NCBI RefSeq assembly: GCF_032854445.1 | Contig: NC_088301.1 | Coordinates: forward strand, 23,842,226-23,906,225 | Origin: Liolophura sinensis | Taxonomy: Eukaryota; Mollusca; Polyplacophora; Chitonida; Chitonidae | DNA length: 64,000 nucleotides | Reading direction: 5' to 3' | Shown here: in pieces, positions 12,723-31,696 of the stretch | How the letters are laid out: every line of letters starts with the position of its first letter | Numbering within the stretch: position 1 is the stretch's first letter | Notes under the pieces: generated by a model | The model's database searches: none | What the model saw: the letters and a program-made list of their open reading frames with translations, nothing else | Told to the model about the DNA's origin: nothing | Translations under genes and position numbers: made by a program

Positions 12723-12884
12723 ATGGCAGCTTCCATACACGTGAAGTCGAAAGGAAAGTGGAATCCCGTTAAACTTGACCCGAAACTGTTCACTGACAAG
12801 CATTTTGGTGGGCTTATTTGTGTAGAAGAACTGAAAGACTACGAAATTGTAAAAAAATATTCGAATCCGCAGGAAATTGAAAAG
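12723..12884 (+). CDS. DDX24: DDX24 exon 1 (coding)
   Basis: Residues 1-54, [15 protein letters not shown] to NPQEIEK; donor AAG/GTACAG, phase 0. The block [11 protein letters not shown] and [12 protein letters not shown] is the family's N-terminal signature. Confidence 0.94.
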
Positions 12885-15800
12885 GTACAGCAAATCAAAT
12901 GCGCTTGCGGTTGACGCGCTGTTGTTGTTGTTGCCCAATGCTAGCCTAAAGCTAAGCTGGACGTTCCTACTGTAACGCCCAGCTGCGGTCATATGATGGA
13001 GGTATATACAGTACGACAACTCAGGCTCTTCAATTCATTGAAGAAGCAGTTTTTCACAATGAACATACGAGGAGCTCATTGACTAACAATAGGGTCACCC
13101 TACATGTAATCTTTAAAACTGCCAAATACCGACACAGCAGATCTCAGGTTTTGTCTTAGCAGAGGATTTGCCTGTCTGCCAGGTCTTTGCACATGCGTTC
13201 TCAAGATTATAGCAGCTTTTGACACCTGGGGTAAAAGATACTCAGAATGCAACCAGTCGTATGTTGTTTGCTGACAACAGAGCCCCTTGTTCAGGCAGTG
13301 AATTGAAATGTGATGCATTTTTTACCATAACATGAAAATCACGTTCAAATTTTTGTCTCTTTCATCTTCATCTCCATAAGCAGTGGTTCACGGGTTATAT
13401 GGATTACATACATTAGCAGGACGCTAATAAACGTTCAGCAGAGGCGTGTAATCACAGCATGTGATCCTCTTCAGTGCGTTATATTTTTAAAATCAGTGGG
13501 GACTGCATGCTCACCTACGTCGACCAGCAGTGCTTTTCGAGAAATATTGGAATGTAGTGTTTAAAATATCAAACTTGCCAAGCGTAGGGCTTATGGGGCC
13601 TTAAATTGCCAAATTTGCACATTCAGTTAAGTATTTCCCTGATCTTATTTTTCTAAACTATAGATTGTTACTTGTGCAGAAATGTGAGTTTATGGAATTC
13701 AAACATGACCAATTTTGGATATTTTCGAAAAAGGCCTATGCGTTTCAAATGGGCAAGTTTTTCAATTTTCAATCATCATTTAAAAGAAAATTGAGCTGTG
13801 GGGCACACAGTGCGTCACCAGGTAAATGGCACAAACTAATTCTACCTGTAAAACATAATTTTATCGCACTATGTACACTAGCAAATAGTGAAACAAAAAA
13901 GTTCCTGATACTTCAGTAAATATCACTGTCCTTTACATACTATATAGTCCGATACAATAATCCTACAGATGTGATTAAAATGCCCACTTACATGCACAAA
14001 TATAACCTTACTACGTCGTTGTTGTGTGCAGAATTTGGAGTTGATGTATTTAACTTAAAGTAGGTGTGCATTTTGAGGCAGTTCACCCTAAGCCCCGCCT
14101 TCGGATGTCCTGTGAGGCGGGGTATCATACAATGGACATCAAAGGCTCCCTGGCCGTGGGAGGGCTCATTTAGAGTAGAAAGGCACAGTGGGCAGGTCTG
14201 GTCGGCCATTGGGCTGACTGGGCGAGTTGTTCCTCTTTCCATATATACCTTCATGGTCATAGAGACTTCCACTCGTACAATTTCACTAAAAAAACGGTCA
14301 CAAAAATTTTGTCCTACACAACATTCTCTTTAAGGCAGGCATGCCCTTAAAACAGAATGTTGGGTGAAATAAAATTCTTGCAAGCCGTCACCCTCCCCAA
14401 AGATGAAAGAAAAAAATTCCAAACATAGCAGATGTTGATTTGAGTTGTCAAATTTGAAAGTTTAAACAGCTGAATTACTGTTGAAAGATGGTTTACCAAT
14501 GCTAGCTTTGACATATTACATTTTGGGCGTTTTAGGGAATTGGTGGAGAGCAAAAATAAAGTGGGGTCCGAACAGATTTTTTTTAGTGAAATTGTCCGAG
14601 TGGAAGTCAATATGACCGAAGCTGGGCGTTGCGGTAGGTTTGGGCTAGATCTATGCGTGTACGCGACCTGGGAAGGGGATTTCATCTTTTTAGTATCATG
14701 ACAGGACCATGTTTATGCTCATTTATATGCCTGTCTGCAAGCAGTCGGTTTTTCTGCAATTGTTGTTTCTTTTAATGGTATTTACCTCCCTCTGTTATTC
14801 ACAGAGATGGGCTCATTCTAACTATAGACCGAGCCTTAAAAGGCTGTTGACCAATACATTATCTGGATACATAGCTTGTCAAATCAACTTCATAACATAT
14901 GAAATGAAACATATCAATTAAAAGACTGCATTGAAGTTTTTATTGATCTTTTTTTTCTTTTCAGTTGTCTGATGGTAAAAGTAAAGCAGCTTTAACAGAC
15001 AAATCTAAGCGGAAACGAAAAGCATCTAGTGTCCCCAGCAAATGTGATAAAAAGGTGAAAAGAGATGAGAAAGTAGTCAAACCCCAAATCAGTGAAACAG
15101 AACAATGTGATGAAAGTCAGAAAAAAGACCACAAGGTGTCAAGAAAGAAGAAAAAGTTGTTAAAATGGAAAGAAAAAGCCCGCTTACGGAAAGAGGCGAA
15201 AAATGCCCATATAGTAGAGGGACAAGTTTTGCCCATGCCATTAGATGAAGATGAAGAAAAAGAAATGGATATATCCACTGTCAGTGACAAGAGCAAGAAT
15301 AATGGCAGAAGTAAACAAAGAAATGCTCCTATCTCTAAATTAAAAACAGGTCTGTATATTTTGATTTCCTTTGTGTATCATATGTCTTCAAAGCTTATAT
15401 GCTTTGGGAGGCGGTAGATCCAGGGTCAATCCTGGGTCGGGTAACACCTAAGACTTTGAAAGAGGAAGTTGTAACTTCCTCGCTTGGCACTCCGCATTAA
15501 GTGGATAGTGCAACATAATGGCTTGGGCGGGGTGGCTTACTTGCCTTCGGAAAGTCATCTCAGTGAAGCAGCACTAGATAAAATAGGGGTGGAAATCCAT
15601 CCTGCAACAAGGAGGCACATTACACATATATATACTCTAATAACTCCATCGTCATCATATGACTAAAAAATTAAAAAGTATGACGTTAAACCCCAAGCAC
15701 TCACTCAAAGCTTATAGCTGAGATCACATATGTAACAATTGAATGGAAAAATGTCTCAAGTGTAAAATAGGGCAATGTTAATTTGCTTTTGTTGCTAAAG

Positions 15801-18800
15801 GTAACAGGTGATAAATCAATCATCCATTACTCTGTCACTGTGAATGAAAGCGTGTATGTACGAGATTGAATTCTGTGAAACGTAGTGGTAAACTTGGTAA
15901 ACATGTATCATGAGTATATTACCACTCTCAGCTCCAGTTTTTGGGGGGAAATTATAGGAAAAATCGCAACAGTTCAGTCAACATTATCTGAGGTGAAGAG
16001 TATCAGATAAAAGCAAATGTTCTGGATCATTAACATGTCCAATTCTTATGTTGATCCAGGCAAGCAGAAAAAGGCGTGGAAAAAAGTAGAAAACGCTGAC
16101 AAATCTGGAAATGTTACCTCTGAGAATATAATGACAAAATCAAATCATGGGAAGCAAACAGGTGAGTGTCTGAATTGGTGTATTTTATCTAAAGTTGGTA
16201 TGCAAAAATGCACTTTCAGAAGAACGTAAAGGTTTTAAAATGATACTTCCAATGCCAACACTTAAGTTTTTTTGGCTAAGAAATTAATCATACTTCAGAA
16301 AAAATATTATTTGATTTTTTAAACTGAATGAGTCAATCCAAATCAAGTAAAATCTGTCACTTGAAAAGGCTGAACTTTAGGTGAAATACAGTATATAGGG
16401 TTGCTGTGTAACGTGTTGTTCAGGTGTGTGTCAAGTTACAGGTAGTCAAAGTTAGAAAGTTGTTTTGAATGGTGATGTAATAATGTGTATCAAGTTACAG
16501 GTAGTCAAAGTGAGAAAGTTGTTTTGAATGGTGATGTAATAATGTGTGTCAAGTTACAGGTAGTCAAAGTGAGAAAGTTGTTTTGAATGGTGATGTAATA
16601 ATGTGTGTCAAGTTACAGGTAGTCAAAGTTAGAAAGATGTTTTGAATGGTGATGTAATATTAATGAAATTGTATTATGCTAAGAGACTGTCTAGCGTTGA
16701 AATGAAGTTCAAGAGCCGTCTCCTTTTTTTAAATACTAGAATTAAACATTTGAATTTTTCCAAGCTTAGGTTTTAACCATAAGCTCAGAAAGTTTATTTG
16801 CCATTTGTCATATATTCAAGACATTGGTGCCTTCCAAAATGATAAAATATGGATTGTGTTTTTTGTGCATGTTGTGCAAATGTCAAGATCTACACATCTC
16901 TCTTCCACCTTGTTTTGTTAGTTAGAGTAATCTCCCCTGGTGTCAGTATGTCCGCACATGTGAGTTATCAGATCTTTGCGTCCCTCTCCATCTTGTTTTG
17001 TCTGTCAGAGTGATCTTCTCTGATATCAGTATTATCACAAACCTATTTTGTAGACATGTCTGCGCATACTCCTTACAGGGCTCTAGCTCGTTGCTTTACA
17101 TCACTGCCACCACTTGTAGATTTTTGTACAGAAATCTTGAACAAGGCCAAGGTCACTGGGGTCTCAGTGATAAAGCAGAAATTGGTGTCAGAAAACACAA
17201 GCAATCTGTCTCAACCTTGGTCTCTAACAATACTTTTATGCACATGCATTCTCTTTATATAGCTTATATACAACATGACTCTAACCAAAGCTTAAACAAA
17301 TTTTATTGTTGAATGCTGATTAAATAGTTCTGCGGAGGGGACACATGTGATTAGGCTAAGCCTAAACAAACCTACATGCATCTCAGGGGCTCCAAAGGTC
17401 AAGCTTGTCTTCTAGTGGCAGTGATGTAAAGTGAAAGGTAGAGAGCGACGCATGCGTTGTGAGGAGTATGATGTCAGCCTGGTCTGATCTTTGCATCTCC
17501 GTTCGCTTTCTGTTTTGTCAATCATAGTGATCTCCCCTGATGTCATTATCATCAAGCATCTATTTTGTAGACATGTCAGCCTGGTCAGATCTGTATGTCC
17601 CTCCCCCAGTACTCAGAGCTTTGACAGACCAAGGCTTCACCTGTCCCATGCCTATCCAGAGCTTATCTTTACCATCAGCCATCAGGGATAGGATGGACAT
17701 CATGGGGGCAGCACAGACGGTACAGTGTAAAACTATTTGTTTGTTTACTAGCAATAAACATTCTACATTTCAGAGTAGTTAACTGATATATAATTGCAGT
17801 ATAGTCTATAATTGAGAAGAGATGGACAAGAAAAGGTTGAGCTTCATAGATAACCATTTTCCGGGCCGTAACTAGAGTCACTTTTGTTCTGGAAAACGTT
17901 TGGGCTCCCAAACTGTTGGCCACCCAAACTAAAAAAAGCTGTATTAAAACTAACAAGTTAATTAAACAAAAACATGATAGTTTACCAATAAAAAGTTAAG
18001 TTTTCATGTAAATTTCTTTCTTTAAAGCTCTTAGAAAGCAACATTTTGAGTTGCATTTTTAAAGTTTCTTTATGCACATTGACAGTGTCACCATTAAAGT
18101 TTGGGCTCAGAACCTTAAATGTTTTCTAGATATGACCCTGGTTTGTACTTCCTTTTGTGTGTCATTAAAGATTTATTTTTCAAATAATTTTTGGGAGTAA
18201 TTTGAGCGGTTTATAATAATTAGTATTTTCTTATTGACATTGTATGAGTAACGTTTTCAAGCTTAATCTGCAAAAATGAAAAATATAAGTAGATAGATTC
18301 AAATTGAAATATTACTCGTCAGGTTTTGATTTTATTATTGAGGAAGTGAATATGAGTATTAAAGACTATTTCCACAAACTTATGTGAAAGTTGTTATTGT
18401 ACATGTTGGACCAACAATCAAGAAACGCTACCTGTGAACTAGGACAGGCAATTGTTTTTCAGACATAACTTAAATTCATGGTTCATTTATGTCATAAGGT
18501 CATTGTTTAAGTTTTATTATCTTTTTCAGGGCAGTGGCAAGACGTTAGCATTTGCCATCCCAGTAATACATCATATTCTTGAATACAAGGAGAGGAAGGC
18601 ACAGAAGGCAGCAAGGGAGTTAACTCCATCAGAGTTAAGTGAAGAGGAAGGGGAGGAGGCGTGGCGCAGTGAGGAGATGGATGATACCAGTGAGATGATG
18701 TCAGAGGATGAAGACAGTGATAACAGTGGTAATGAAGTGGATGAGGAGAACAGTGATGATGATGAAGATGAAGTGCCTCCCTTCCCAGGTGAGGAGGAGG

Positions 18801-21800
18801 ATGATGAAGAAGGAGACTTTGACAATCCTCCTAATGAAGAAGATATTGGAGACTTTGAGGTAAACCTTTTTAGGCCAGTGACGCATGTTTCTGGTTCTCT
18901 GGAATGTTTTGGAAAGTAAGGTGAGGGCAGTGGAATAGTTAGCATTTTTAATTATTATTTTATGATAGTATCACCTTCTGTGATAATTTCTGACAGAAGA
19001 AGTAATGAGTTCTGACACGGGGGGTAAAAGGATATTTAGACAGATAATGGAAAACAAGGAATCAGGTATATCTATGGTTCATGTCAAAGACTGGTGTCTT
19101 TGACTAGGTTTGCACATTTTTAAACTCTATGATGATATGATTTGTTTAACTTTGCTATAGTGCTTCATTTTTGCTATACTGCTTATTCAGGATTACCTCT
19201 TTTCCATAAGCATTTCTAAACATAAAGGTGAAAATCAATTTAAATTTATGTAAATGTAATGTTCTTAAACTTTTTGGATAACAAATCACTTTTTTGCCCT
19301 TCTCAAAGGATCACGTCTTTGAAAGAAAAGTAGTAAGCTGCTTCTCAGTGCAATTTGTAAATCTATTTCTGGATGTTAATGGCTTTTCTGGGAACAAAAG
19401 TAAGAACAGCAAGCCTGAAAATTAATGATGGTTGATCATGATTTTCTGTTTCATATTTGCATCAGGAGAATGGCACTGGGTTGGTCAAGGTGTTAAATGA
19501 CGTTGAATTTGATTGGCCAGAAGTGACCAGTGAGAAAAAGCGTATGACAGGTGAACTATTATGTTTAGTGCTTACTCCAACAAGAGAGCTGGCAGTTCAA
19601 GTGAAGAACCACATAGAAGCTGTGGCCATATACACAGATATCAAGGTAATGATTGATTTTAATAAATTAATATTATTTTAATCTACGAGAGATTCCTCAG
19701 TTACTGGGTGCTTATCTTTCAGCTGTCTTTATTTCACTTAAAGTTGAGTTTTTTTTTTGCATTGATTTAAGCTTTTGCTTCGACTTTATTCCAGGATGAT
19801 GTGTTTCATTAAAGTTCAGATAATATGCATACAATTTCCCAAACATTTCTGTTGCCACCCCCCCCCCCCTTTTTTTTTTCAAAGCTAAAAGAAATTTAAA
19901 TCAGAATTGTCATTATTTTTAAAATGTTTGTGAAAGAAAAGAATTTGTTGTGTTTGTACCAAAATTTTGGTTAGTTTCATGTGATGAAACATATGCATGA
20001 AAACTCACAAGGAAACCTTGCAATTGTATGAAATGTCGTATGTGTAAAAATCATCACATATATATGAAACTTTGCATCTGGGAAGCTTAACATGTAGGAA
20101 ACATTACATATTTAGGAAACATTATACATTATGCTTTGTCTCTTTATGGAGTTTTGAACTTATTTATTCTGTAGTACAAACTGTTGAATTTAGTGTGCAT
20201 AGCTCATGTCTGATACCTGACCTTCAGGTTGGTTTGGTTGTGGAGGAATGGCTCCCCAGAAGCAGAAGCGACTGTTAAAAAGATGTCCGGAGATTGTGGT
20301 GGCCACACCGGGACGACTCTGGGAGCTAATCGAAGAGGTAGGACATGTTCACTCAGCTTTCCTCTGATATCTTAATTAAGAGCAGAGTGCAGCACCATAA
20401 TGGTTAAGATCATACTCTTTATATGCAGGAAAATTGGGTTCAGCCTGCATGGTGTAAATAGGCTTAAAAAATTAGATATGCATCTAAAATGAAAAAATAG
20501 CATACTGTATACGTCTGAAGATATTGTGTGCACGCTTGAGTTCGTGAAAGTGTACATGCGGGATTTAAAGCCGAAAGTCCTGAGACAGGTAAAAAAATTG
20601 TTATGTGTCTCGTTAAGCAGGTTACCATAGAAAAAATAATACTGCAACCTATTCTTCTGTCAAAGCATAACAAAACCATAACGTTATCAGTGAGCGAGCT
20701 ATTGAAATAAACCACACACTGGTTCATACAAAATAACTAAATAAATGTAATAACGTCATTCAGTATTCATTCCTCTTGAGGGAGAGCTGAAATAATCACT
20801 TAATTCTAGAATGTTACGACAAGTCGTAAATTCTGGACAATTTACGTGTACATCTACGAAGGAAAGAACATGTATACATGTAGGCCTATGTATACATGTG
20901 CTTCAAAAATTAGAAAGTCTGGAGTACCGTACTCCATCTGAAAAGAAATTATATGTAGCACTGTCTTCTGAAATGTGTCTTAAAACCTCAAAAGAAAGAA
21001 ATATACATGTGTTTATGTTAAAAAACCAAAAAAAAATGAAAGCAAGAGGCCTATGCTTAGGATTACAAAAGGGACAGAAATAGTGGTTAATCTGCTTGCC
21101 TTTCAATCACAAGGTCACATGAGGTGTGGGTTCAAATCTGGCCTTGGATAGGATATCATTTTTTGGGGCCTTGGTTACAATAATCTTCCGCTGAGAAGTC
21201 CAGTAGTCTGCTACCAATATCATATTTACATTTGTACGTCACGTTTGAAAGGGGCCTCCATGGCCTACTGGTTAGCATGCCAGTACAGAATATTGACAGT
21301 TACCAGTGCGATCATTGTGAGTTCAAATCCAGCTCATGTCGGCTTCCTCTTCAACCTTACATGGGCGGATGGTTGTGGGTTTCCAGAGCCCTGTTTCCTC
21401 CCACCATAATGCTCGCCACCATTGTATATTTGAAATATTCTTAAATACAGCATGAAACACCAATCAAATAAATAAATCAGATATGGCCATGTAGTTTCCT
21501 CCGTCCTTGAAACTTACAGCCGTTGAAAATTCTTGAGTATCGTGTTAAGAAAAAATCAGATGTAAAATAAATAGAGAATTCTACATAGTGGACAAAAATC
21601 TGTTGTTTTCTGTTACAGGGGGATTCCTACCTGACGGATGTAGAAGATATTAAGTTCCTGGTGATAGATGAAGCTGACAGAATGGTGGAGAAGGGACATT
21701 TTGAGGAGTTGTCCACATTGCTGGAGAGAATCAATGCGTAAGCGCTTCTTACATGTGGCATAATTCCTAAGTTTTAAGTTTTAGGTGTGATGTGTAGCTC

Positions 21801-24800
21801 TGTAGCTTGATGAGGTTTTAAAAGAAAAGACAACAAATAATATTACTGGAACCCCCCACAAATGAACAGTCCGCAAAAACAAAATCTTCCGCAGTGTCCG
21901 TGAAATATTCCTGATGTGACGTGATAATATTCCTTATGTGACAATGCAGAGGGTTGATATGACTTTGAGTAGCAGCAGTTATGCTGGATTGACGTCATGC
22001 GCGTTTCAGACTATGACTTCATTTGTTGCCCTAAGTCAGTGATGGGTGATGTCAAGTGTTCTTGCATGACATCACACCAGGCAAATTTGGAAATGATGGA
22101 AAGCTTTTGTTTCTGTATTATCTTTCCGAACTAACAACATGAATACAGCTTTAAATACAATGCATTTTTAGTAGTACATGAATGTGTCCAACCAAGACCA
22201 TGAAGTATTTTTTTTGGGGGGGGGGGGGGGGGTTACTGATTTTTGTGCTGCTGGTATTTTTTTACACGTGTTAAGTGTTTATCTGACAGCACTTTGTGTT
22301 TACCAGAGAGCATGTTGTGTTTACTTGGGAACACGTTGTGTTTACTTGGGAACACGTTGTGTTTACCTGGGAGCATGTGTTTACCCGAGAGCATGTTGTG
22401 TTTACCTGGGAGCACATTGTGTTTACCTGGGAGCACATGTTTACCTGGGAGCACGTGTTTACCTGAGAGCACGTTGTGTTTACCTGGCTTGTGAATATTG
22501 CAAGTGGGAAGATGTACACTGTATGTCACTTAATGTTTGGTGTGTAATGCACATTCACAAACATGTAAAGGCATTAAAGTGACACTTTTGATGCTAAGAC
22601 TTAAGTTTTTCTGAAAGGTGTTTATGAAACTTGACAAAAGAAAACTACTAAAGTTGCCCGACAAGGTTGATGGATCAATCAAAATCAAGGAAACTGTGTC
22701 AGTCAAAAAATGCTGAACTAGGTGAGTACAGTAGCTGGTAATATAACAGTGAAAGGACACTTTCTAGGCAACATGGTTGAAATACACGTATAATTATTTT
22801 TATGCAAAATTTGACTTTTGGTGTTTTATTATTATTTTTTTTTTTTTACATAGGAATGAAGAAAACAAGAAACATAGACAGACGTTTGTATTTTCTGCAA
22901 CATTAACTGTAGTACATTCAGGTCCACAGCGTTTTACTAAACAGAAAAAGATGCCCCTAACCACTGATTTGAAGCTGGGTAAGTTAAACTGCATCAGCTT
23001 GGAATGGAAGTCTTGTAACTGCCCTGCCCTAAATGACCATAAATTTCGTCCATGACTAACTTGCCTATTTTTCCTGATTCTGAGCTCTATTGATTTTAAA
23101 AAGGTGTTTTGAGGTTTGCTTGGAACATGGGATGATATTCTACTGGAAAGGTGTAAGTTCCAGCACTAAAAAAAATATACATTTTGTGACATTCATTTGC
23201 CTCTAAAAATGCACTTTTGCAGGCAAAATTTTAGGGTACAGGTCATTTAGGGTATATGGTTATTTATGTGATACTTTATAGCATACAGGAAAAAAGACTG
23301 TGGCCACATCAGTTATAAATTCTTGTATTATGGGCGGAGTGAATTTGTTTTCATTGTCGGAGGAGGGTTTTAAATTCTTGTGTCACAAACAGAATGAATT
23401 TGTTTTCATTGTCGGAGCAGGGTATAAAATAAAAATAAAACTACCCCCCCCCCCCAAAAAAAAAACCCCACCTAATTTGTGTTATACATGGACTGCCTCA
23501 GTAATTTTTCCTGCCGTAGACGTATTTATGTGATTGGAAAACCTGTAAAAAACAGGAAAATCATAAAAATCATCTTTTATATCTGACAGAATAAAAGGGT
23601 TTGTTTTGCACAGGCTAAAAGAAGGTGTATTTAGGGAACTAACTGGTTATACTGTTCACTTTCATAAACAGTGTTTGATGGATATGCAAGAAATTGGATA
23701 AACAAGCTTTGGATATGTTATTGTACAAAATTTAAGTATTTGTCTTTGTTGACAGAGAAGCTGATGGCAAAGGTTGGTATGAAGGATCGGCCAAAGGTGA
23801 TAGATCTTACTGGGAGGGTAGGGACGGCTGACACCCTGACAGAGGCCAAAATACACTGTGCTACAGGCGAAAAGGTCAGTAAATGTACAGAGATACACTG
23901 TAAAACAGGGGAAAATGTCAGTAACTGCACAAAGATACACTGTGCTACAGGGGAAAATGTCAGTAACTGTACAAAGATACACTGTACTACAGGGGAAAAT
24001 GTCAGTAACTGTACAAAGATACACTATGCTACAGGGGAAAATGTTAGTAAACCATACAAAGATTACACTATGCTACAGGGGAAAATGTCAGTAACTGTAC
24101 AAAGATACACTGTACTACAGGGGAAAATGTCAGTAACTGTACAAAGATACACTATGCTACAGGGGAAAATGTCAGTAACCGTACAAAGATACACTATGCT
24201 ACAGGGGAAAATGTCAGTAACCGTACAAAGATACACTATGCTACAGGGGAAAATGTCAGTAACTGTACAAAGAAGCACTGTGCTACGCGAAAAAAGAGTC
24301 AGTAGATCTGCAATGATACATAGTTGTAAAGTGAGGAAAGGTTAGTAGCTTGGCTGAGAGACAGTGCGCTGTGTAAAAGGAAAGATCATGACTTCAGCGG
24401 AGGTACACTGTGCTGTTTGAAGGAATTTAATATCACATCGGCTGAGATGCATGTATGCAGTGCGGTTAAGTAGCTCGAGCAGGACTTGGTGTGTGACATG
24501 CTATATGAGCCAGTGCCTGTTGCTGGGATACTGGGATACTTCAGTAGATACACTGTTGTATGTGTTTAAGTGTTTTAGGTTCAGTGGCTGGAGTTTGCTA
24601 CACTGTTCATTGACAAAGTAAATACAAAGGCTTTCACTCGCAGCGTTTTAATGCCTTTTATTTCAGCTCTGTATGATTATCTGCTGGCCCTGATTTTGCA
24701 GTTTCAAATATTTCATAATATCACTTGATGATAGTAACATTTTTACTAATATGCTTGTGTGTTTTTGTTTTAAATTTTAGGACAGTTACCTGTATTACTT

Positions 24801-27800
24801 AACGAGACAGTATCCAGGTAGGACCCTGGTGTTCGCTAATAGTAAGGACTGCATCCGAAGATTGTCTTCAGTATTCAGTTTACTGAAGAGAAATCCTCTA
24901 ACTCTCCATGCTGACATGCATCAAAAACAGAGGCTGAAGAATCTGGAGAGGTTTACAGGTAAAATGGCCAGATTTGTGCAAAACTATTTTCTTCACTTTT
25001 GTTGTCTTGAGGTAATATATTCATTATTAGATTATCAATTTATTGAAAAGGGAAGGTATTCTGTGATAGAATTAAAAGAGGTTTAAGAATTAAAAACTAA
25101 TTAATGAGGTACACCATATTCCAAGCAATTTGGTGTGAACTTACAATACTAGCGAGTCTTAATGGCTGTCATTACGGGGCTCAAAATCTTTGATATTTTG
25201 AGCTACATGTATTTAGAGTCATGACCTTGATATAAATTGAGGACGTCCAAAACAATTGACACATGAAATATATTACATGCTATTTACAGATATTGTAAAA
25301 CAGCAAGGACCCAGGTGCCTCCCATCAGTGCAGTCGTTGTGAGGTCAAATCCAGCTCTTGCTGGCTTCCCATCTGGCCGTATTTGGGAATGTCTGCCAGC
25401 AACCTGCAGATGCTCAGGGGTTTCCCATGTGCTCTGCTCGCTTTCCTCCCACCATAATGCTAGCCGCCATCATATAAGTGAAATATTCTTGAGTAGGCAT
25501 AAGACACAATCAAGTAAATAAATAAGTAGCACAGAAGTGGCTGAAATATGGCAAAAAATCCCAGCTAAGCACAAACACTTGTTTTGTAAAGTCTAGATTG
25601 AGTGGATGAGTGCTTAGGGTTTGACGTCGCACTTAACAATTTTCAATTCAGATGGCGATGAAGGAGTGCATATAGAGTGCCTCAGTAACACAAGACAGAT
25701 TTCCACCACTCTTTTGTCTGGTGCTGCTTCACTGAGACAACTTACTTATGGCAAGGAAGTTGCCCCACCTGAGCGATTATACTGATATGGGTCAACCAGT
25801 CATTGCACTATCCCCTTAATGCTGAGTGCAAAGCAGGGAAGCTACAACTTTCTCTTTTAAAGTAAAGAAAGCTAAAATATGAAGCAAGGTTCATCATACG
25901 GACAACTGAAAACTATGTGTAAAAATACTTTCATTTATTTTTCCTGATTTATTTTAACAGTGATGACAAGCATTCAAATATACCATCAGTATGGCTCATA
26001 AGGGCTTTATGAGCCATACTGATGGTATCTAGGAACTCTGATGTCACATCACCCTTTTTTCCTAATTTTAATCAGAAGAAAGGAATTTTTGAGAACATTA
26101 TTTCATCAATGTTTTATTCTTTGGTAAAAAGAGTTATTCCAACATTCAATGTCGTGATTAGAGTTCGAAAATCTTCCTGTGACGTCAGAACTCCTAAACT
26201 CTGATTGTATGGGCCGTAAAGCTCACCTTAGAATTCAAATGTTTGAACGCCCTTAACTCTTTTCACAAAAAAGCTAAAAAAAATAAGCAAAAATGTGTTT
26301 GTGCATAGCTTTAAGTGGTCTATTTAGTGATGCCTACTTCCATTTTTAGAGGTTTTTTCATTAAGATCTTAGGTGTGATCCAACCCAGGATTGACCATGG
26401 ATCTACTGCCCCCGAAGCCGACGCTCTACCAACTGAGAAATTGGGGCCGTTACGTGAGGACTAGAAAACTGAAACATATTTGGGGTGTGCAGACACATAG
26501 ACAAACAACAGGCAGACAGTCAACACACTTCCAGCACACCATCCATACACCACAGGCACATCATGGTCAGAATTAGTCCTCACTACCGAGTGGCCTTCAG
26601 AGGATTTTCAGATTACTGTATAATGAAATCCTCTTTATCAGTAGAGCTACTTTCAAGTCTAAAAAGTGATTCTTCCTCGTTTTTGTCCACAAGGTGATGA
26701 CAAAGGCCTGTTGCTGGCTACAGACGTTGCTGCTAGAGGCCTGGATATTCCTAATGTACAGCATGTGATCCATTACCAGGTGCCCAGAACCACAGAGGTG
26801 AGTTATCACACGTCTCCCAATGTACAGCATGTGATCCATTACCAGGTGCCCAGAACCACAGAGGTGAGTTATCACACTTCTCCCAGTGTACAACGTGACC
26901 CAATACCAGGTGTGCAGAACTACAGAGGTGAGTTATCACACTTCTCCAAGTGTACAACATGTGATCCATTACCAGGTGCCCAGAACCACAGATTTGAGTT
27001 ATCACACGTCTCCCAATGTACAGCATTTGATCCATTACCAGGCGCCCAGAACCACAGAGGTGAGTTATCACACTTCTCCCAGTGTACAACGGGATCCATT
27101 ACCAGGTGTGCAGAACTACAGAGGTGAGTTATCACACTTCTCCAAGTGTACAACATGTGATCCATTACCAGGTGCCCAGAACCACAGATTTGAGTTATCA
27201 CACTTCTCCCAGTGTACAACATGTGATCCATTACCAGGCGCCCAGAACCACAGAGGTGAGTTATCACACTTCTCCCAGTGTACAACATGTGATCCATTAC
27301 CAGGTGCGCAGGACCACAGAGGTGAGTTATCACACATCTCCCAGTGTACAACATGTGATCCATTACCAGGTGTGCAGAACCACAGAGGTGAGTTATCACA
27401 CTTCTCCCAGTGTACAACGTGATCCATTACCAGGTGTGCAGAACTACAGAGGTGAGTTATCACACTTCTCCCAGTGTACAACATGTGATCCATTACCAGG
27501 TGCCCAGAACCACAGATTTGAGTTATCACACATCTCCAGTGTACAGCATGTGATCCATTTTTCCTGATTCTAAGAGTTCTGTTGAGTTTAGAAAGGTGTT
27601 TTGAGGTTTGTTTGGAACATGGGGTGATATTCTACTGGAAATTTGTTAGTTTCAGCACCAAAAATAAGATTTTGTGACAGTTGTGTGCCTCTAAAAATGC
27701 ACTTTTGGGGGCGAAATTTAGGTCATTTAGGGTGATTACCATAAACAAAGGGCTGTTGGCTAGGTTAATCAGGTGTGTAGTAGATACTGATATCTGTGCC

Positions 27801-30800
27801 TGTTGTCTCCTAGAACTATGTGCACAGAAGTGGCCGGACAGCCAGGGCTTACAAAGAAGGGCTTAGTGTCATGCTTGTGGGACCAGAAGACTTGAAAAAT
27901 TACAAGAAGATTATTTACACTCTCAACAAAAGTAAGTTTGTTTAACTTTTTTTTCCCACATTTATTATGTATTTTTATGTACATAATCAAATTTTTTTTT
28001 TTTTAAATAATAAAAAAGACAAAAACAACCAAGGAAACCATACTTTTCTTTTCTGTGCCTTATATCAGATATAGATATTTCCTTTTGTCATAAAATTTTT
28101 ACCTCTTTTTGATTTTAAAAAAAAAAGGCTTTTATTTTGTAAGCTGTGTTGCTTCCCAAGTATTTTTATTTACAGAAAGGTATATGTTCTTGTTTGTCCT
28201 ACTTTGCTTATTGTTTCATGAAAGAGGATGGAGGAATGAATCTTGAGTGTTGTACATATACTCTCTGAACAAAATTAAAATAAATAGATTTTGGGAACCC
28301 ACAAATTTTCATTTGTTTCCCTTTGTTTCCCTGCAGATGAAGATTTGCCCCTGTTCCCTGTGGAATATCAGTATTTTAATGAATTACACCTCAGGGTTAG
28401 TCTGGCCCGACAAATTGACTCTCAGGAACACAGGTATGTGCCAAAGTTTAGGGTATCCTTTACTGCAACTTGGCTTAATTTGACCCAAAATTTGGTTCAT
28501 AACTTATTTCTCCTGATTATGAGATTTGTATTGTAAACGGTGTTTTTATGGTGTGAGGAAGATGGGATGATAACCAAAAGAAATATTTTATGAGCTTTAT
28601 TTGTGTTTAAAATGCAAGCTGCTCTTCCTGCGTGAGCTGGTTAACACTCTGGCTCAAATGACCAAAGAACTTTTGTATGCTAATTCATCTCTTGCTACTT
28701 CGGTTGTAAGACAGGGCACTCCAGTTTTCTCCAGCCATAGGCTTCAGCAAGATTATACATGCAAAAACTTCTTGAACACAGCATTAAAACATCATTCAAT
28801 CAATTAATCAATCATCAAACTAGTACGTGTAGTGATGAGTCATATGTGATGCTATAAGTAATGAGAAGTGAATGGCTTCGTGAGTTTTGTTGACAGATAT
28901 GTTCCTGTACCATGTGCTTTCCTATTGGTATTCAGGTTTACTAAGCTAAAACATCAGAACAACTGGTTCCAGAAAGCAGCACAGGAAGTGGATGTGGAAC
29001 TGGATGAAGAGTTGCTGTATCCTTTAAAGCGCTTTATTTGGCATTGTAGTGTTGGGTTGTTGAAGTAAGGCCACGCCAGTTTTAATTTTTGTTTTACAAG
29101 TAGCAGAAACCTTATTTACGGTGATTAAGGAGGGCATAAAAATAAAACTAAAAACTTGAAAATCATCTAATTTGTGGGAAATGCAGATTATTGTGGTAGT
29201 TTTTCCTGTTTAAGACATTTACTTGATTGGAAAGCGTAGAAAAACAGGAAAATCATATAAACATAGACATTGGAAAAAATAAAAAGGTGGATGTTCAGTT
29301 TTATTTTCATTCTTTTTTTTTATAATTTTCTTTTGAGAGTAGACAAGTCTTTAAAAATTAAAATAAGATTGATATTGCCTAAAGATTAATTTCTCTATAT
29401 ACAAGCGAACAACAACCACAAACCACAATTATGGACTACATCATGTGACCCATAAGCCATTTTACATAACATTATGCCTGACATGGATTTTGGAATCCTG
29501 GACAGACATGCATTTATTTATTTATTTATTTGATTGGTGTTTTACGCCGTTCTCAAGAATATTTCACTTATACGACGGCGGCCAACATTATCAGACATGC
29601 ATTTATTCTGTATTAGATGTGGATTGTATTTTAGAATTTTATTTTTGAAATCTGAAAATCTGGTGCTTTTGCTACTGGAAATATTGATGTGTTATCCTCA
29701 CGCTATGAGTGAGTGGGAGGAGTTCTTTCTACTAACTAATCACTCTTTCATTTTTTTATTTATTTGTTTATTTATTTTTTAATTTAATTGGTGTTTAATG
29801 CCGTACATGAGAATATTTCACATACATGTATACGGCGGTGGCCAGCATTATGGTGGGAGAAAATAAGACACAGCCCCTGGGGCAAACCCACCACTATCCG
29901 CAGTTTGCTGGCAAACCTTTCCACGTATGGCCGAAGAAGAAGCCAGCATGAGCTGGACTTGAATTCACTTGCGACCGGTGAGAGGCTTCTGGGTCATTGT
30001 GACACGCTGGCATGCTAACCACCATGGCCATGGAGGCCACGATCTCTCTTTTATAGTATTGGAGATAAAATTATTGTCCTGGTAATGAAACAATGAATGC
30101 TTCTTTATTGCACTTATCCAGCCTTGCAGTTTTTGCAGTTATAAGTCCTTCTGACTGATTGAAAAGTTGTTTTAACGATAAAAGATCGAACATCTAGATT
30201 ATTGACAATTATCTGCCAATTGACAAAAAGGTGATAAGCTGAACATGAACATTATATATCTTAACCATGACCCAGTTTGAACGACCTTGGTGATCAAAAA
30301 CAACAGATGGCTTTGAAAGGGAAGCTCAAAGCGATGAAGGAGGAGCTAAATTATTTACTGAAGCAGCCTGTGTCCTCATACAGCTTCTCTGGCAAATATC
30401 CCACGCGGACTGGAAAACTGGAACTTCCCAAAAGGCCAGGTAATTATTTTTCTTACCTGTGTACAGTTGAGGTTGGTGGTTTACTCCAGGCACTTCGGCT
30501 TCTTCCAATTATAAATCCGTTGTTTACTGTAAATTTTCAACCATTTCAACCACTTAAACTCTTTTTTTTTTTCCAGTGAAACTTATGCATACGATTATTA
30601 TAAAAATAACACCAAATATGATTTGTTTGTGTTACTAAAGATGAAAGCTTTATAAAGCTATGCAGATTTAATATTTCTGTACACCCCATGGCTCTCTCAG
30701 AACGTTTCAAAACATTGGTTACTGAGGTGGTTGAAAAGGTTGAAGAATTAGGGTAAGTGAGAAATACTTTTAAATCACTGTTGAAATAAGTTAATAAATA

Positions 30801-31696
30801 AAATTCGTCAACAGCTGTATATGTAAAGGTAAAAAAAAGTATTTCAGGATTAAAAATTTTAACATGACATTTTCGTTAAATTTTCTGTGATGACCTGGTT
30901 AGATACATACTATTCACATGAAATTGTCAGTGATCACTGAATAGAATATTGAAGTTGAGCAGGGAAGTTTGAAAGCTTTAGATGCTGGGAGCTCTGTTAT
31001 CTTTCCTCCAAGCAGTATTCAGGACACTGATTGGGCGTGACTTTTAGTACATTGACAGTGACGAAACTGTTGAGATACTTGTTGCCTGTTTGATGTGAAA
31101 TTCTTGGCCCCAGCTTGTTCATTTGGCTTAAGTGTTGTCTTTCTCTGACTGAAGACACTGCAGGTTCAAATCCAGATCGTGCAAATTTTATATGGTCATA
31201 TCGTGAACAATTCTTGATAATGACATTAAACATCAACCAAATAAATGATATCAAGCTTGACAGCACTTTTGTGACAGGCTCCCAGTGCATATGTGCTAGT
31301 ATATTATATTTATTATGGGATTCAGTTGTCATTCTAAGTCCAGTGTTGTTTGTTTAGATACTGCAGAAGATGCCATCTCCTGTGTGAAGACATGTGTTTG
31401 TATATTATGTTTATTATGGGCTTGAGTTGTCATTTTAAGTCCAGTGTTGTTTGTTTAGATACTGCAGAAGATGCCATCTCCTGTGTGAAGACATGTGCTT
31501 GTATATTATGTTTATTATGGGCTTGAGTTGTCATTTTAAGTCCAGTGTTGTTTGTTTAGATACTGCAGAAGATGCCATCTCCTGTGTGAAGAAAGACAGA
31601 GCTTTTCAAACCAAAATCCTGAGAAGTAACAAAGCCAAACCCCCCAAGCCAAAACAAAAGCAATTTTGGAAAAAGAAAAAACAGAACAAAAGTTGA
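12723..31696 (+). CDS. DDX24: DDX24, DEAD-box RNA helicase of the Mak5/DDX24 class (whole CDS, 17 exons)
   Basis: DDX24 is a nuclear, mainly nucleolar ATP-dependent RNA helicase linked to large-subunit ribosome assembly (yeast Mak5). Seventeen exons give about 886 residues (human 859). The N-terminal block [15 protein letters not shown] and [10 protein letters not shown] matches the DDX24 signature. A lysine-rich stretch follows (exons 2-3). Helicase motifs in order: Q motif with GFTCPMPIQ (exon 4), motif I AAQTGSGKT across exons 4-5, the long acidic insert typical of DDX24 (exon 5), Ia PTRELAVQV (exon 6), GG and Ib TPGRL (exon 7), II DEAD (exon 8), III SAT (exon 9), IV LVFANS (exon 11), [13 protein letters not shown] (exon 12), [10 protein letters not shown] (exon 13). 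The tail is lysine-rich. All phases agree except exon 7, which is one base short. Odd features: four splice-junction tandem arrays and a U12-type intron. Start chosen at the first ATG, context AAAATGG. Confidence 0.96.
14262..14608. repeat. Inverted-repeat element in DDX24 intron 1
   Basis: GACTTCCACTCGTACAATTT with CACTAAAAAAA (about 14266-14296) recurs inverted near 14577-14608 with one mismatch in the first 20 bases. Arms of about 31 bp, about 280 bp apart; could be a MITE or foldback element. No target-site duplication recognised. Confidence 0.6.
14965..15349 (+). CDS. DDX24: DDX24 exon 2
   Basis: Residues 55-182 plus one base, from LSDGKSKAA; acceptor CTTTTCAG, donor ACAG/GTCTGT. Highly charged, with basic runs such as [18 protein letters not shown], fitting a nucleolar targeting and disordered region. 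Confidence 0.9.
15400..15712 (+). repeat. SINE family B copy in DDX24 intron 2
   Basis: B-box-like GGTCAATCCTGGGTCGGG near the 5' end, body AGTTGTAACTTCCTCGCTTG and GTGAAGCAGCACTAGATAAA, tail GACGTTAAACCCCAAGCACT. The same order recurs inverted at 25597-25858. Confidence 0.8.
16060..16161 (+). CDS. DDX24: DDX24 exon 3
   Basis: Residues 183-216 plus one base, [16 protein letters not shown] onward; acceptor GATCCAG, donor ACAG/GTGAGT, phase 1 to 1. Lysine-rich linker ahead of the helicase core. Confidence 0.85.
16180..16400 (+). repeat. Short family C (MITE-like) copy
   Basis: Begins GTGTATTTTATCTAAAG and ends CTTTAGGTGAAATACAG, imperfect terminal inverted repeats of about 17 bp. Internal TGCAAAAATGCACTTTCAG and AGAAATTAATCATACTTCA recur at 50475-50690. 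Confidence 0.7.
16425..16662 (+). repeat. 59-bp minisatellite in DDX24 intron 3, four copies
   Basis: TCAAGTTACAGGTAGTCAAA starts at 16431, 16490, 16549 and 16608; copies nearly identical. Confidence 0.9.
16880..17600 (+). repeat. DDX24: Dispersed duplications of the exon 4 acceptor region in DDX24 intron 3
   Basis: The unit runs from GATCT near the exon start through a T/C-rich stretch, GTGATCTCCCCTGATGTCA and CCTATTTTGTAG/ACATGTC. It is seen around 16880-16960, 16962-17075 (with a full TATTTTGTAG/ACATGTCTGC acceptor copy at about 17046-17065), 17470-17500 (ATGTCAGCCTGGTCTGATC) and the true junction 17561-17600. Confidence 0.75.
17571..17719 (+). CDS. DDX24: DDX24 exon 4 (Q motif)
   Basis: Residues 217-266: [27 protein letters not shown] and [14 protein letters not shown], collinear with the human segment. 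Acceptor TATTTTGTAG is repeated upstream in intron 3. Motif I has Q where human has E (AAQT versus AAET). Donor ACG/GTACAG. Confidence 0.94.
18530..18859 (+). CDS. DDX24: DDX24 exon 5 (motif I and acidic insert)
   Basis: Residues 267-376. Starts [17 protein letters not shown], then a long Glu/Asp/Ser insert ([29 protein letters not shown]). An insert here is characteristic of DDX24/Mak5. Acceptor TCTTTTTCAG, donor GAG/GTAAAC. Confidence 0.94.
19466..19645 (+). CDS. DDX24: DDX24 exon 6 (motif Ia)
   Basis: Residues 377-436, ending the acidic insert and giving [20 protein letters not shown] and YTDIK; acceptor TTTGCATCAG, donor AAG/GTAATG, phase 0. Confidence 0.94.
19858..19880 (+). repeat. C/T homopolymer tract in DDX24 intron 6
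   Basis: A run of C followed by a run of T, with similar C or G tracts at 22215-22232, 23443-23455, 39696-39718 and 45661-45676. These are places where assemblies commonly err. Confidence 0.8.
20228..20337 (+). CDS. DDX24: DDX24 exon 7 (GG and Ib motifs), one base short of frame
   Basis: From [13 protein letters not shown] to [16 protein letters not shown] the frame is clear, but with the acceptor CCTTCAG/GTT the first bases read VGLVVEEW instead of the expected VGLVVGGM. Exons 6 and 7 are therefore out of phase by one base, with the missing base around 20239-20243. A possible rescue is an in-frame acceptor CTCCCCAG/AAG that starts the exon at 20260; it would drop the conserved GG doublet. 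Donor GAG/GTAGGA. Confidence 0.85.
21068..21195 (+). repeat. tRNA-like SINE head (tentative third family)
   Basis: AATAGTGGTTAATCTGCTTG resembles a pol III A box and GTGGGTTCAAATCTGG a B box at suitable spacing. It lies just before the full family A copy. Confidence 0.45.
21247..21478 (+). repeat. SINE family A, best full-length copy
   Basis: tRNA-like head with A box (TGGCCTACTGGTTAGCATGC) and B box (GTGAGTTCAAATCC), then TTTCCTCCCACCATAATGC, GAAATATTCTTAAATACAGC and the tail AATCAAATAAATAAAT. Inserted in DDX24 intron 7. Used as the reference for the other copies. Confidence 0.9.
21619..21737 (+). CDS. DDX24: DDX24 exon 8 (DEAD box)
   Basis: Contains [17 protein letters not shown], motif II; acceptor TCTGTTACAG, donor GC/GTAAGC in phase 2. 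Confidence 0.96.
22283..22487 (+). repeat. 20-24-bp minisatellite in DDX24 intron 8
   Basis: About nine units of GTGTTTACCTGGGAGCAC(GTT) with small length changes. The open frames over it on both strands are repeat artefacts. A G tract lies just upstream at 22215-22232. Confidence 0.9.
22854..22978 (+). CDS. DDX24: DDX24 exon 9 (motif III)
   Basis: Reads [20 protein letters not shown] then a lysine-rich stretch; acceptor after a long T tract (TTTACATAG), donor CTGG/GTAAGT-like, phase 1. Confidence 0.94.
23070..23265 (+). repeat. Family D interspersed repeat
   Basis: GTGTTTTGAGGTTTGCTTGG, GATGATATTCTACTGGAAAG and GCCTCTAAAAATGCACTTTT. Recurs at 27555-27745, 28505-28600, 34580-34790 (minus), 58880-58975 and 59275-59372. 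Confidence 0.75.
23420..23585 (+). repeat. Family G interspersed repeat
   Basis: TTTTTCCTGCCGTAG and GATTGGAAAACC followed by AACAGGAAAATCATA. The same order is found at 29130-29265. Confidence 0.6.
23756..23874 (+). CDS. DDX24: DDX24 exon 10
   Basis: Reads [14 protein letters not shown] and [12 protein letters not shown] to CATGEK; acceptor GTTGACAG, donor AAG/GTCAGT. The last 24 bases and the donor are the first copy of the 42-bp array at 23851-24300. By homology the following residue is the D of DSYLYYL in exon 11, so the first copy's donor gives the ancestral protein. Confidence 0.93.
23851..24300 (+). repeat. DDX24: 42-bp tandem array spanning the exon 10 donor of DDX24
   Basis: About 11 copies, units starting at 23851, 23893, 23935, 23977, 24019 and on. 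Copy 1 contains the last 24 coding bases of exon 10 and its donor AAG/GTCAGT. Later copies read AAT/GTCAGT, a weaker donor. The unit is 14 codons, so a long open frame runs through it. Degenerate traces continue to about 24430. Confidence 0.95.
24781..24958 (+). CDS. DDX24: DDX24 exon 11 (motif IV)
   Basis: [20 protein letters not shown] and [19 protein letters not shown]; acceptor AAATTTTAG, donor ACAG/GTAAAA, phase 1. Confidence 0.95.
25305..25527 (+). repeat. SINE family A copy in DDX24 intron 11
   Basis: B-box-like GTGAGGTCAAATCCAGC, TTTCCTCCCACCATAATGC, GTGAAATATTCTTGAGTAGG and the tail AATCAAGTAAATAAATAAG. Confidence 0.85.
25597..25858 (-). repeat. SINE family B copy in DDX24 intron 11
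   Basis: Reverse orientation; reads AGTTGTAGCTTCCCTGC, GGGGATAGTGCAATG, GTGAAGCAGCACCAGAC on the minus strand, parallel to 15400-15712. Confidence 0.82.
25980..26028. repeat. Perfect 22-bp palindrome with 5-nt loop
   Basis: Left arm ATACCATCAGTATGGCTCAT plus AA, loop GGGCT, right arm its exact complement. It abuts a second inverted repeat, TAGGAACTCTGATGTCACA near 26028-26047, matched by TGTGACGTCAGAACTCCTA near 26177-26196. Confidence 0.92.
26028..26200. repeat. MITE-like inverted-repeat element
   Basis: About 19-bp imperfect terminal inverted repeats (TAGGAACTCTGATGTCACA and its inverted partner) enclose about 170 bp of AT-rich sequence in DDX24 intron 11. Confidence 0.55.
26366..26450 (-). 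repeat. SINE family B tRNA-like head only
   Basis: On the minus strand it reads CTCAGTTGGTAGAGCGTCGG (A box) and GGTCAATCCTGGGTTGG (B box), then stops. It could be taken for a tRNA, but no cloverleaf or 3' half follows. Confidence 0.7.
26694..26797 (+). CDS. DDX24: DDX24 exon 12 (motif V)
   Basis: [20 protein letters not shown] to [11 protein letters not shown]; acceptor TCCACAAG, donor GAG/GTGAGT. The last 42 bases plus the donor are copy 1 of a 66-bp array running to about 27557. The next exon starts [11 protein letters not shown], matching human [11 protein letters not shown], so the first donor is taken as the reference one. Confidence 0.95.
26756..27557 (+). repeat. DDX24: 66-bp tandem array spanning the exon 12 donor of DDX24
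   Basis: Twelve copies and a partial thirteenth, starting at 26756, 26822, 26888, 26952 and on. The unit holds the last 42 coding bases of exon 12 plus 24 intron bases. The donor is GAG/GTGAGT in nine copies and GATTTGAGT (destroyed) in copies 4, 7 and 12. The donors of copies 1 and 2 are exactly 66 bp apart, so use of the second adds 22 residues in frame; copy 3 is 64 bp on and shifts frame. Confidence 0.96.
27555..27745 (+). repeat. Family D interspersed repeat
   Basis: GTGTTTTGAGGTTTGTTTGG, GTGATATTCTACTGGAAATT and GCCTCTAAAAATGCACTTTT; begins directly where the 66-bp array ends. Confidence 0.75.
27814..27931 (+). CDS. DDX24: DDX24 exon 13 (motif VI)
   Basis: [20 protein letters not shown] and [11 protein letters not shown]; acceptor GTCTCCTAG, donor AAAA/GTAAGT, phase 1. 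Confidence 0.96.
28337..28433 (+). CDS. DDX24: DDX24 exon 14
   Basis: [19 protein letters not shown] and [11 protein letters not shown], collinear with human DEDIPLFPV and RLARQIE; acceptor TTTCCCTGCAG, donor AG/GTATGT. Confidence 0.95.
28505..28600 (+). repeat. Family D fragment
   Basis: CTCCTGATTATGAGATTTG, ACGGTGTTTTTATGG and GATGGGATGATAACC; degenerate match to 23070. Confidence 0.5.
28936..29016 (+). CDS. DDX24: DDX24 exon 15
   Basis: [20 protein letters not shown] to DEELL; acceptor TATTCAG. It ends at TTGCT before the U12-type donor GTATCCTTT; no standard U2 donor fits the frame here. Confidence 0.92.
29130..29265 (+). repeat. Family G interspersed repeat
   Basis: AGTTTTTCCTGTTTAAG and GATTGGAAAGCG followed by AACAGGAAAATCATATA, parallel to 23420-23585. 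Confidence 0.6.
29503..29607 (-). mobile_element. 5'-truncated SINE family A insertion with target-site duplication
   Basis: CAGACATGCATTTATT stands at 29503-29518 and again at 29592-29607, flanking a reverse-oriented SINE 3' end (ATTTGATTGGTGTTTTACGC to GGCGGCCAACATTAT). A perfect 16-bp duplication suggests a recent LINE-driven insertion, inside the U12 intron. Confidence 0.88.
29757..30040 (-). mobile_element. SINE family A, full copy
   Basis: Reverse orientation: tail ATTTATTTTTTAATTTAATT, then GCCAGCATTATGGTGGGAG, ATGAGCTGGACTTGAATTC (B box) and ATGCTAACCACCATGGCCAT (A box). Second SINE in intron 15. Confidence 0.87.
30276..30439 (+). CDS. DDX24: DDX24 exon 16
   Basis: [20 protein letters not shown] and [11 protein letters not shown], aligning with human KQMKVLKKELRHLLSQP; donor CCAG/GTAATT, phase 1. 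Confidence 0.92.
30583..30752 (+). repeat. Family E interspersed repeat
   Basis: ATTTGTTTGTGTTACTAAAG, ATGAAAGCTTTATAAAGC, CTCTCTCAGAACGTTT and ACATTGGTTACTGAGGTGG; recurs at 47120-47278. Confidence 0.7.
31090..31250 (+). repeat. Degenerate SINE copy
   Basis: TTTGGCTTAAGTGTTG, then a B-box-like CAGGTTCAAATCCAG and a tail ATCAACCAAATAAATG. Confidence 0.55.
31289..31590 (+). repeat. DDX24: 101-bp tandem array spanning the exon 17 acceptor of DDX24
   Basis: TGTTTAGATACTGCAGAAGA occurs at 31351, 31452 and 31553; units include AGTTGTCATTTTAAGTCCAG and the polypyrimidine-poor acceptor GTTTGTTTAG. Use of the first or second copy would give a tail that runs into a stop after SCVKTC and about nine more residues, since 101 is not a multiple of three. 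Confidence 0.95.
31560..31696 (+). CDS. DDX24: DDX24 exon 17 (terminal coding)
   Basis: [19 protein letters not shown] then a lysine-rich end ([19 protein letters not shown]) and TGA. The acceptor GTTTGTTTAG/ATACTGCAG is the last of three copies in a 101-bp tandem array. Confidence 0.92.

Follow-up and report, generated by a model that had tools for sequence, protein, structure and literature searches.

Minisatellites that span exon-intron junctions have been described in amphioxus as 'mirages' (PMC3087553, PMC3902484). They occur in Adh3, TnC, the globin genes Gb6 and Gb9 and PGBD5, and their repeat units range from 10 to about 160 bp. PGBD5 alone has two arrays, of 60 and 108 bp, and the authors concluded that the arrays leave regular splicing undisturbed. 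No report of mirages in molluscs was found in the part of the open-access literature covered, as judged by titles, the beginnings of abstracts and term counts. By their sequence, four arrays in a DDX24-like gene of a chiton belong to this known kind, and the undisturbed splicing and the length instability that form part of the mirage description are predicted for them.

Four arrays over splice junctions of a DDX24-like gene

The window, that is, the whole stretch of 64,000 nucleotides that was analysed (contig C7, 23842226-23906225; the assembly has 632 contigs and a size of 609 Mb), contains on its forward strand a 17-exon gene for a DDX24-like DEAD-box RNA helicase (12723..31696). All 16 introns of the gene model are GT-AG, and the open frame comprises 886 residues once a single N in exon 7 is accepted as an unknown base. 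This exon (20228..20337) is out of frame by one base in the assembly, a shift that reflects a sequencing error or else a variant. The protein matched both PF00270 and PF00271, and its top matches were DDX24 or ATP-dependent RNA helicase proteins of 61-63% identity, the best of them from bivalves, a nemertean and a gastropod. In a tree of DDX24 proteins, the bivalve and gastropod rows were nearest to the window protein by path, and no well-supported clade was recovered for it; a lancelet origin of the window was rejected.

Three of the arrays, all on the forward strand like the exons of the gene, were called by TRF. The donor of exon 10 (23756..23874; AAG/GTCAGT) is covered by a 42-bp array (23847..24320), which was reported as 10.5 copies with 91% match at 23847-24286 and, in a second row of 212-bp period, at 23852-24320. 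The donor of exon 12 (26694..26797; GAG/GTGAGT) lies in a 66-bp array of 12.3 copies with 90% match (26755..27559), for which extra rows with periods of 196 and 262 bp suggest turnover, as seen in one assembled haplotype. The acceptor of exon 17 (31560..31696, to the end of the coding sequence) lies in a 101-bp array of 3.0 copies with 96% match (31291..31592), the third copy being the real one. Two further TRF arrays, a 59-bp array within intron 3 (16425..16659) and a 21-bp array within intron 8 (22275..22487), lie entirely in intron sequence and provide comparison cases.

At the exon 4 acceptor, TRF called no array at 16880-17600, and direct sequence comparison, self-similarity and BLAST were used instead. 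They revealed a decayed junction-spanning repeat (16880..17606, forward strand) of four copies, namely the real one at 17571 and, upstream of it, three at about 16880, 16963 and 17471, with a start-to-start spacing of about 83-102 bp. The copies were 81% alike over 70 nt and 72-80% alike over 46 nt, with a BLAST E value of 8e-15. The genuine acceptor of exon 4 (17571..17719), TTTTGTAG/ACATGTCAGCC at 17570/17571, yields 18 residues similar to those found at this place in the orthologues. Inside the repeat lies an insertion of ~416 bases (about 17055..17475) that carries inverted repeats, among them a perfect 17-nt pair at 17094-17110 and 17415-17431. No further copy of the insertion was found within the window or in a sample of 19 ten-kb stretches (L009-L027), 4 of them flanking the window and 15 placed at round-number positions on other contigs.

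The arrays overlap their exons by 36 (exon 4), 28 (exon 10), 43 (exon 12) and 33 (exon 17) bases, and at all four junctions the conserved protein is continued from the exon-side copy. When 70-mers centred on the junctions were compared with their own flanks, the scores were 28 for exon 4 and 48, 64 and 68 for the others; none of 400 shuffled 70-mers reached 25, and their 99th percentile was 16. The four arrays showed no cross-similarity. The initial annotation had described four arrays of separate origin, each built on its own splice junction, and both points are borne out, the former by the lack of shared sequence and the latter by TRF at three junctions, direct comparison at exon 4 and the gene model. 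Its coordinates agreed with the TRF arrays within a few bases, except at the outer end of the exon 10 array.

An origin of the units from a transposon or dispersed repeat was not supported. The exon 12 unit had at least 12 genome matches, in a search that skips very common words and gives lower bounds, and all those listed lay within the exon 12 array itself; the units of exons 4, 10 and 17 matched only themselves when compared with the window and L009-L027.

As in the amphioxus mirages, the unit in each of the four DDX24 arrays combines exon and intron sequence over the splice site, which may be a donor or an acceptor; several tandem copies of minisatellite length are present (42, 66 and 101 bp by TRF, with exon 4 represented by decayed copies only); AG or GT is kept in many, but not all, copies; and one gene carries more than one array. 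The DDX24 case differs in that it comes from a mollusc rather than a cephalochordate and comprises four arrays in one gene, and it is known from genome sequence alone, whereas amphioxus globin and Adh3 transcripts have been examined. The initial annotation had considered junction-spanning arrays unexpected, a view overtaken by the amphioxus reports (PMC3087553, PMC3902484), and an EEF2KMT-like and a FES-like gene of the same genome were found to be alike in this respect (see below). Two other systems are related. The variable internal tandem repeats of human segmentally duplicated genes share minisatellite growth at an exon edge, but they changed gene structure or produced novel introns (PMC2812944), whereas the DDX24 coding frame looks unchanged. 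In intron gain by tandem duplication (the Rogers 1989 model; potato RdRp, PMC4974935), duplication likewise sets new splice sites beside an exon, but the extra copies in DDX24 lie within an existing intron.

Minisatellite density and junctions in arrays

With a TRF period of at least 15 and a score of at least 100 as cut-off, 48 minisatellites made up 11.7% of the 190-kb sample (L009-L027), and arrays occupied about 12.5% of the DDX24 intron length. The genome paper (PMC11068029) gives 0.08% for a class that combines simple repeats, microsatellites and RNA and 14% for unclassified repeats, and the sampled minisatellites may sit in the latter.

Tandem duplication was found at 4 of the 32 DDX24 junctions (12.5%). 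The comparison values were 12.3% for random intron positions (n = 600) and 4.7% for positions inside exons (n = 170). For the gene within the window that the initial annotation had named NSMCE1, a name we adopt as an assumption, the figures were 0 of 12 junctions against 0.0% of random positions; the stretch of dystrobrevin in the window had 0 of 14, with 8.5% for random positions. Dystrobrevin was followed beyond the window with homologues, its identity being supported by search, and 16 further junctions were sought by motif. The N1, N2 and N4 donors could not be located and were dropped; one of the remaining 13 junctions was duplicated, compared with 19.5% of 800 positions drawn at random from introns. 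Over the window and its flanks, 4 of 71 junctions lay in TRF arrays that cover 11.1% of the bases. Placement or rotation of whole arrays gave an expectation of 2.26-3.06 junction arrays, where 3 or 4 were observed (P 0.31-0.54); exon edges are not enriched under this null.

A second, stricter null placed a single unit of each array anywhere but in exon interiors, and it was chosen because an array survives only with the junction in its terminal unit. Under this null, 3 of 5 DDX24 arrays lay on a junction with 0.52 expected (P 0.0095), or 4 of 6 with 0.69 expected when the decayed exon 4 array was included (P 0.0014). For the whole window, 3 of 12 arrays lay on a junction with 0.64 expected (P 0.022), and for the gene spans of the window and flanks 4 of 18 with 0.85 expected (P 0.0068). 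We think that the single-unit null is the better model of the two. The modest junction excess in DDX24 stands as a number, in a gene that was chosen for its arrays, and is nominal.

The same structure was found in three other genes. The acceptor of the dystrobrevin ZZ-domain exon lies inside a 46-bp array (L012, 7063-7751, minus strand), about 27 kb to the right of the window. The initial annotation had set DDX24 apart from dystrobrevin and NSMCE1, a contrast that holds for their 26 junctions in the window, which are free of arrays, and fails at this acceptor beyond it. Inspection of 37 arrays in the 15 stretches on other contigs for coding edges (87 ORFs) identified an exon donor, CAGCTG/GTAA, inside a 37-bp array (L013, 2649-3814, minus strand, contig C1) that contains eight such donors, the genuine one included. 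The gene is presumably EEF2KMT-like, judging from tblastn, and its exon edges are mostly the ends of tblastn matches. In a third gene, on contig C2, the upstream intron of a kinase catalytic-loop exon (RDLAARNCLIAAQNVVKISDFG; L019, 8338-8900, minus strand) holds decayed tandem copies of the acceptor and coding edge, which are 62-86% alike, in pieces. We take this gene to be FES-like, and two other genes in the sample to be DRC3-like and aminopeptidase N-like, judging from their peptides; the exon edges of all three were set with our own small splice and codon matrices. Random positions were duplicated at 0.0% in the DRC3-like stretch, 29.0% in the aminopeptidase-like stretch and 4.0% in the FES-like stretch, and at 12.4% of 900 positions over the 15 stretches.

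Among junctions outside DDX24 that were not picked by their arrays, 2 of 62 were duplicated: none of 12 in NSMCE1, one of 27 in dystrobrevin, none of 14 in the DRC3-like gene, none of 7 in the aminopeptidase-like gene and one of 2 in the FES-like gene. The EEF2KMT-like gene was excluded from this count, having been found through its array and having nine mostly approximate positions. The expectation, calculated as array density times mean period and corrected for coverage (48 arrays per 190 kb times 37 bp; 18 arrays per 88 kb times 62 bp), is about 0.7-0.9, and the probability of two or more among 62 is about 0.14-0.22, which is not significant.

These counts bear on a mechanism favouring exon edges, which the initial annotation had raised. 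A local process, such as transcription- or splicing-linked DNA breaks or a feature of exon-edge sequence, would seed tandem duplications preferentially at junctions, and the single-unit results (P 0.0014-0.022 and 0.0068) and the presence of four arrays in DDX24 alone argue for it. We nevertheless consider it unlikely: the signal comes mainly from DDX24, the very gene that prompted the finding, the 62 junctions elsewhere include 2 duplicated ones against about 0.7-0.9 expected, which is not significant, and base coverage shows no enrichment, in DDX24 (4 of 32), in the dystrobrevin extension (1 of 13) or over the window and flanks (4 of 71). The suggestion found little support, as DDX24 junctions were duplicated as often as intron positions; the single-unit null does give an excess, which is nominal and not significant outside DDX24.

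Splice sites and reading frame in the copies

That the arrays multiply splice sites, as had been suggested, proved correct in that each duplicates one. In the exon 12 array, GAG/GTGAGT, with a score of 11.6 bits, was kept in 9 of the 12 full copies, the genuine donor and eight spare donors of equal, full strength. The remaining three full copies read GATTTGAGT, each directly after a 64-bp copy, suggesting that the defect was multiplied together with the neighbour copy. In the exon 10 array, GT was retained in 10 of the 11 aligned copies, and nine internal copies read AAT/GT rather than AAG/GT (G to T at position -1). The genuine exon 10 donor scored 9.6, eight internal copies 5.5, one internal copy 2.0 and the last, degenerate copy 4.5. 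The exon 17 array contains three identical acceptors, all with the splice signal (3/3) at 1.8 bits, a weak site on the small matrix used.

The 42- and 66-bp units consist of whole codons. Read-through past exon 10 is open until a stop at 24343 (about 156 codons) and past exon 12 until a stop at 27125 (about 109 codons). In the exon 12 array the frame is broken by the 64-bp units after the second copy, and use of either spare exon 17 acceptor leads to a premature stop. The 14 DDX24 orthologues contain no inserted units at the exon 12 boundary or, as read by eye, at the exon 10 boundary. Since the orthologues are uninterrupted across both boundaries, the exon-side copy is the ancestral junction. 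This copy would be the one that is spliced in DDX24, which fits the orthologue proteins, and in-frame isoforms from the spare exon 12 donors are possible.

The strength of the exon 12 donors, the whole-codon units and the long open read-through would all suit arrays that multiply splice sites to a purpose, for example regulated isoforms in which the helicase gains 22 or 14 residues. This explanation is very unlikely in light of the frame break in the exon 12 array, the premature stops from exon 17, the internal exon 10 donors weakened to 5.5 or less, the dead exon 12 donors that were multiplied along with the array and the absence of the inserts from the 14 orthologues compared.

Origin of the arrays

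The DDX24 arrays are probably minisatellites of the mirage kind, which started from chance duplications spanning a junction, grew into the intron and were tolerated, and which are common through a high minisatellite rate. We infer both the growth mechanism and the neutrality of the arrays. A short tandem duplication would happen to cover an exon-intron junction, and the array would then expand into the intron via slippage or unequal exchange. It would be tolerated because the exon-side copy still provides the coding edge and the splice site, and the remaining copies would turn into intron sequence and drift. The frequency of such arrays would follow from the high rate at which this chiton genome appears to generate minisatellites. 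This reading draws on the exon-side copies that continue the conserved protein, on the splice sites lost or weakened in internal copies, on equivalent arrays in three further genes, on the minisatellite density of the sample and on the amphioxus precedent. So far nothing points to a function of the DDX24 arrays. The eight spare exon 12 donors at full strength argue against this reading, and neutral placement alone may be insufficient for DDX24, because the junction arrays exceed the single-unit expectation.

A broader proposal, which we regard as rather improbable, is that tandem duplication in this chiton lineage is seeded preferentially at junctions, several-fold above chance. The arrays would then keep a reserve of spare in-frame splice sites, such as those of DDX24 exon 12, from which protein length variants and new introns would arise. 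An assembly expansion artefact is extremely improbable: the one-base frameshift in exon 7 indicates that small errors may exist, but the arrays are shorter than 1 kb, their copies differ by substitutions and indels, and PMC11068029 describes PacBio HiFi reads (mean 8,347 bp, 14x) for Liolophura japonica, the source of this assembly if the species match is right.

Mirages have been described in lancelets, and the pooled count of 7 junctions spanned by arrays among 103 in 7 genes, four of the seven in DDX24, the gene that prompted the finding, suggests that a chiton may also have them frequently. According to PMC11068029, the HiFi assembly, gene models and RNA-seq are public, which makes it testable how the spliceosome ignores near-exact duplicates of splice sites and whether junction-spanning arrays feed intron gain.

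Directly after the exon 12 array lies a dispersed repeat (27560-27700), which occurs again, 84% alike, in intron 9 (23070-23212) and has weaker matches in L024 and L019. Intron 15 (29017-30275) starts with GTATCCTTT and contains TCTTAAC shortly upstream of its end; with this start and branch-like motif, the signature of such introns, it looks like a U12-type intron.
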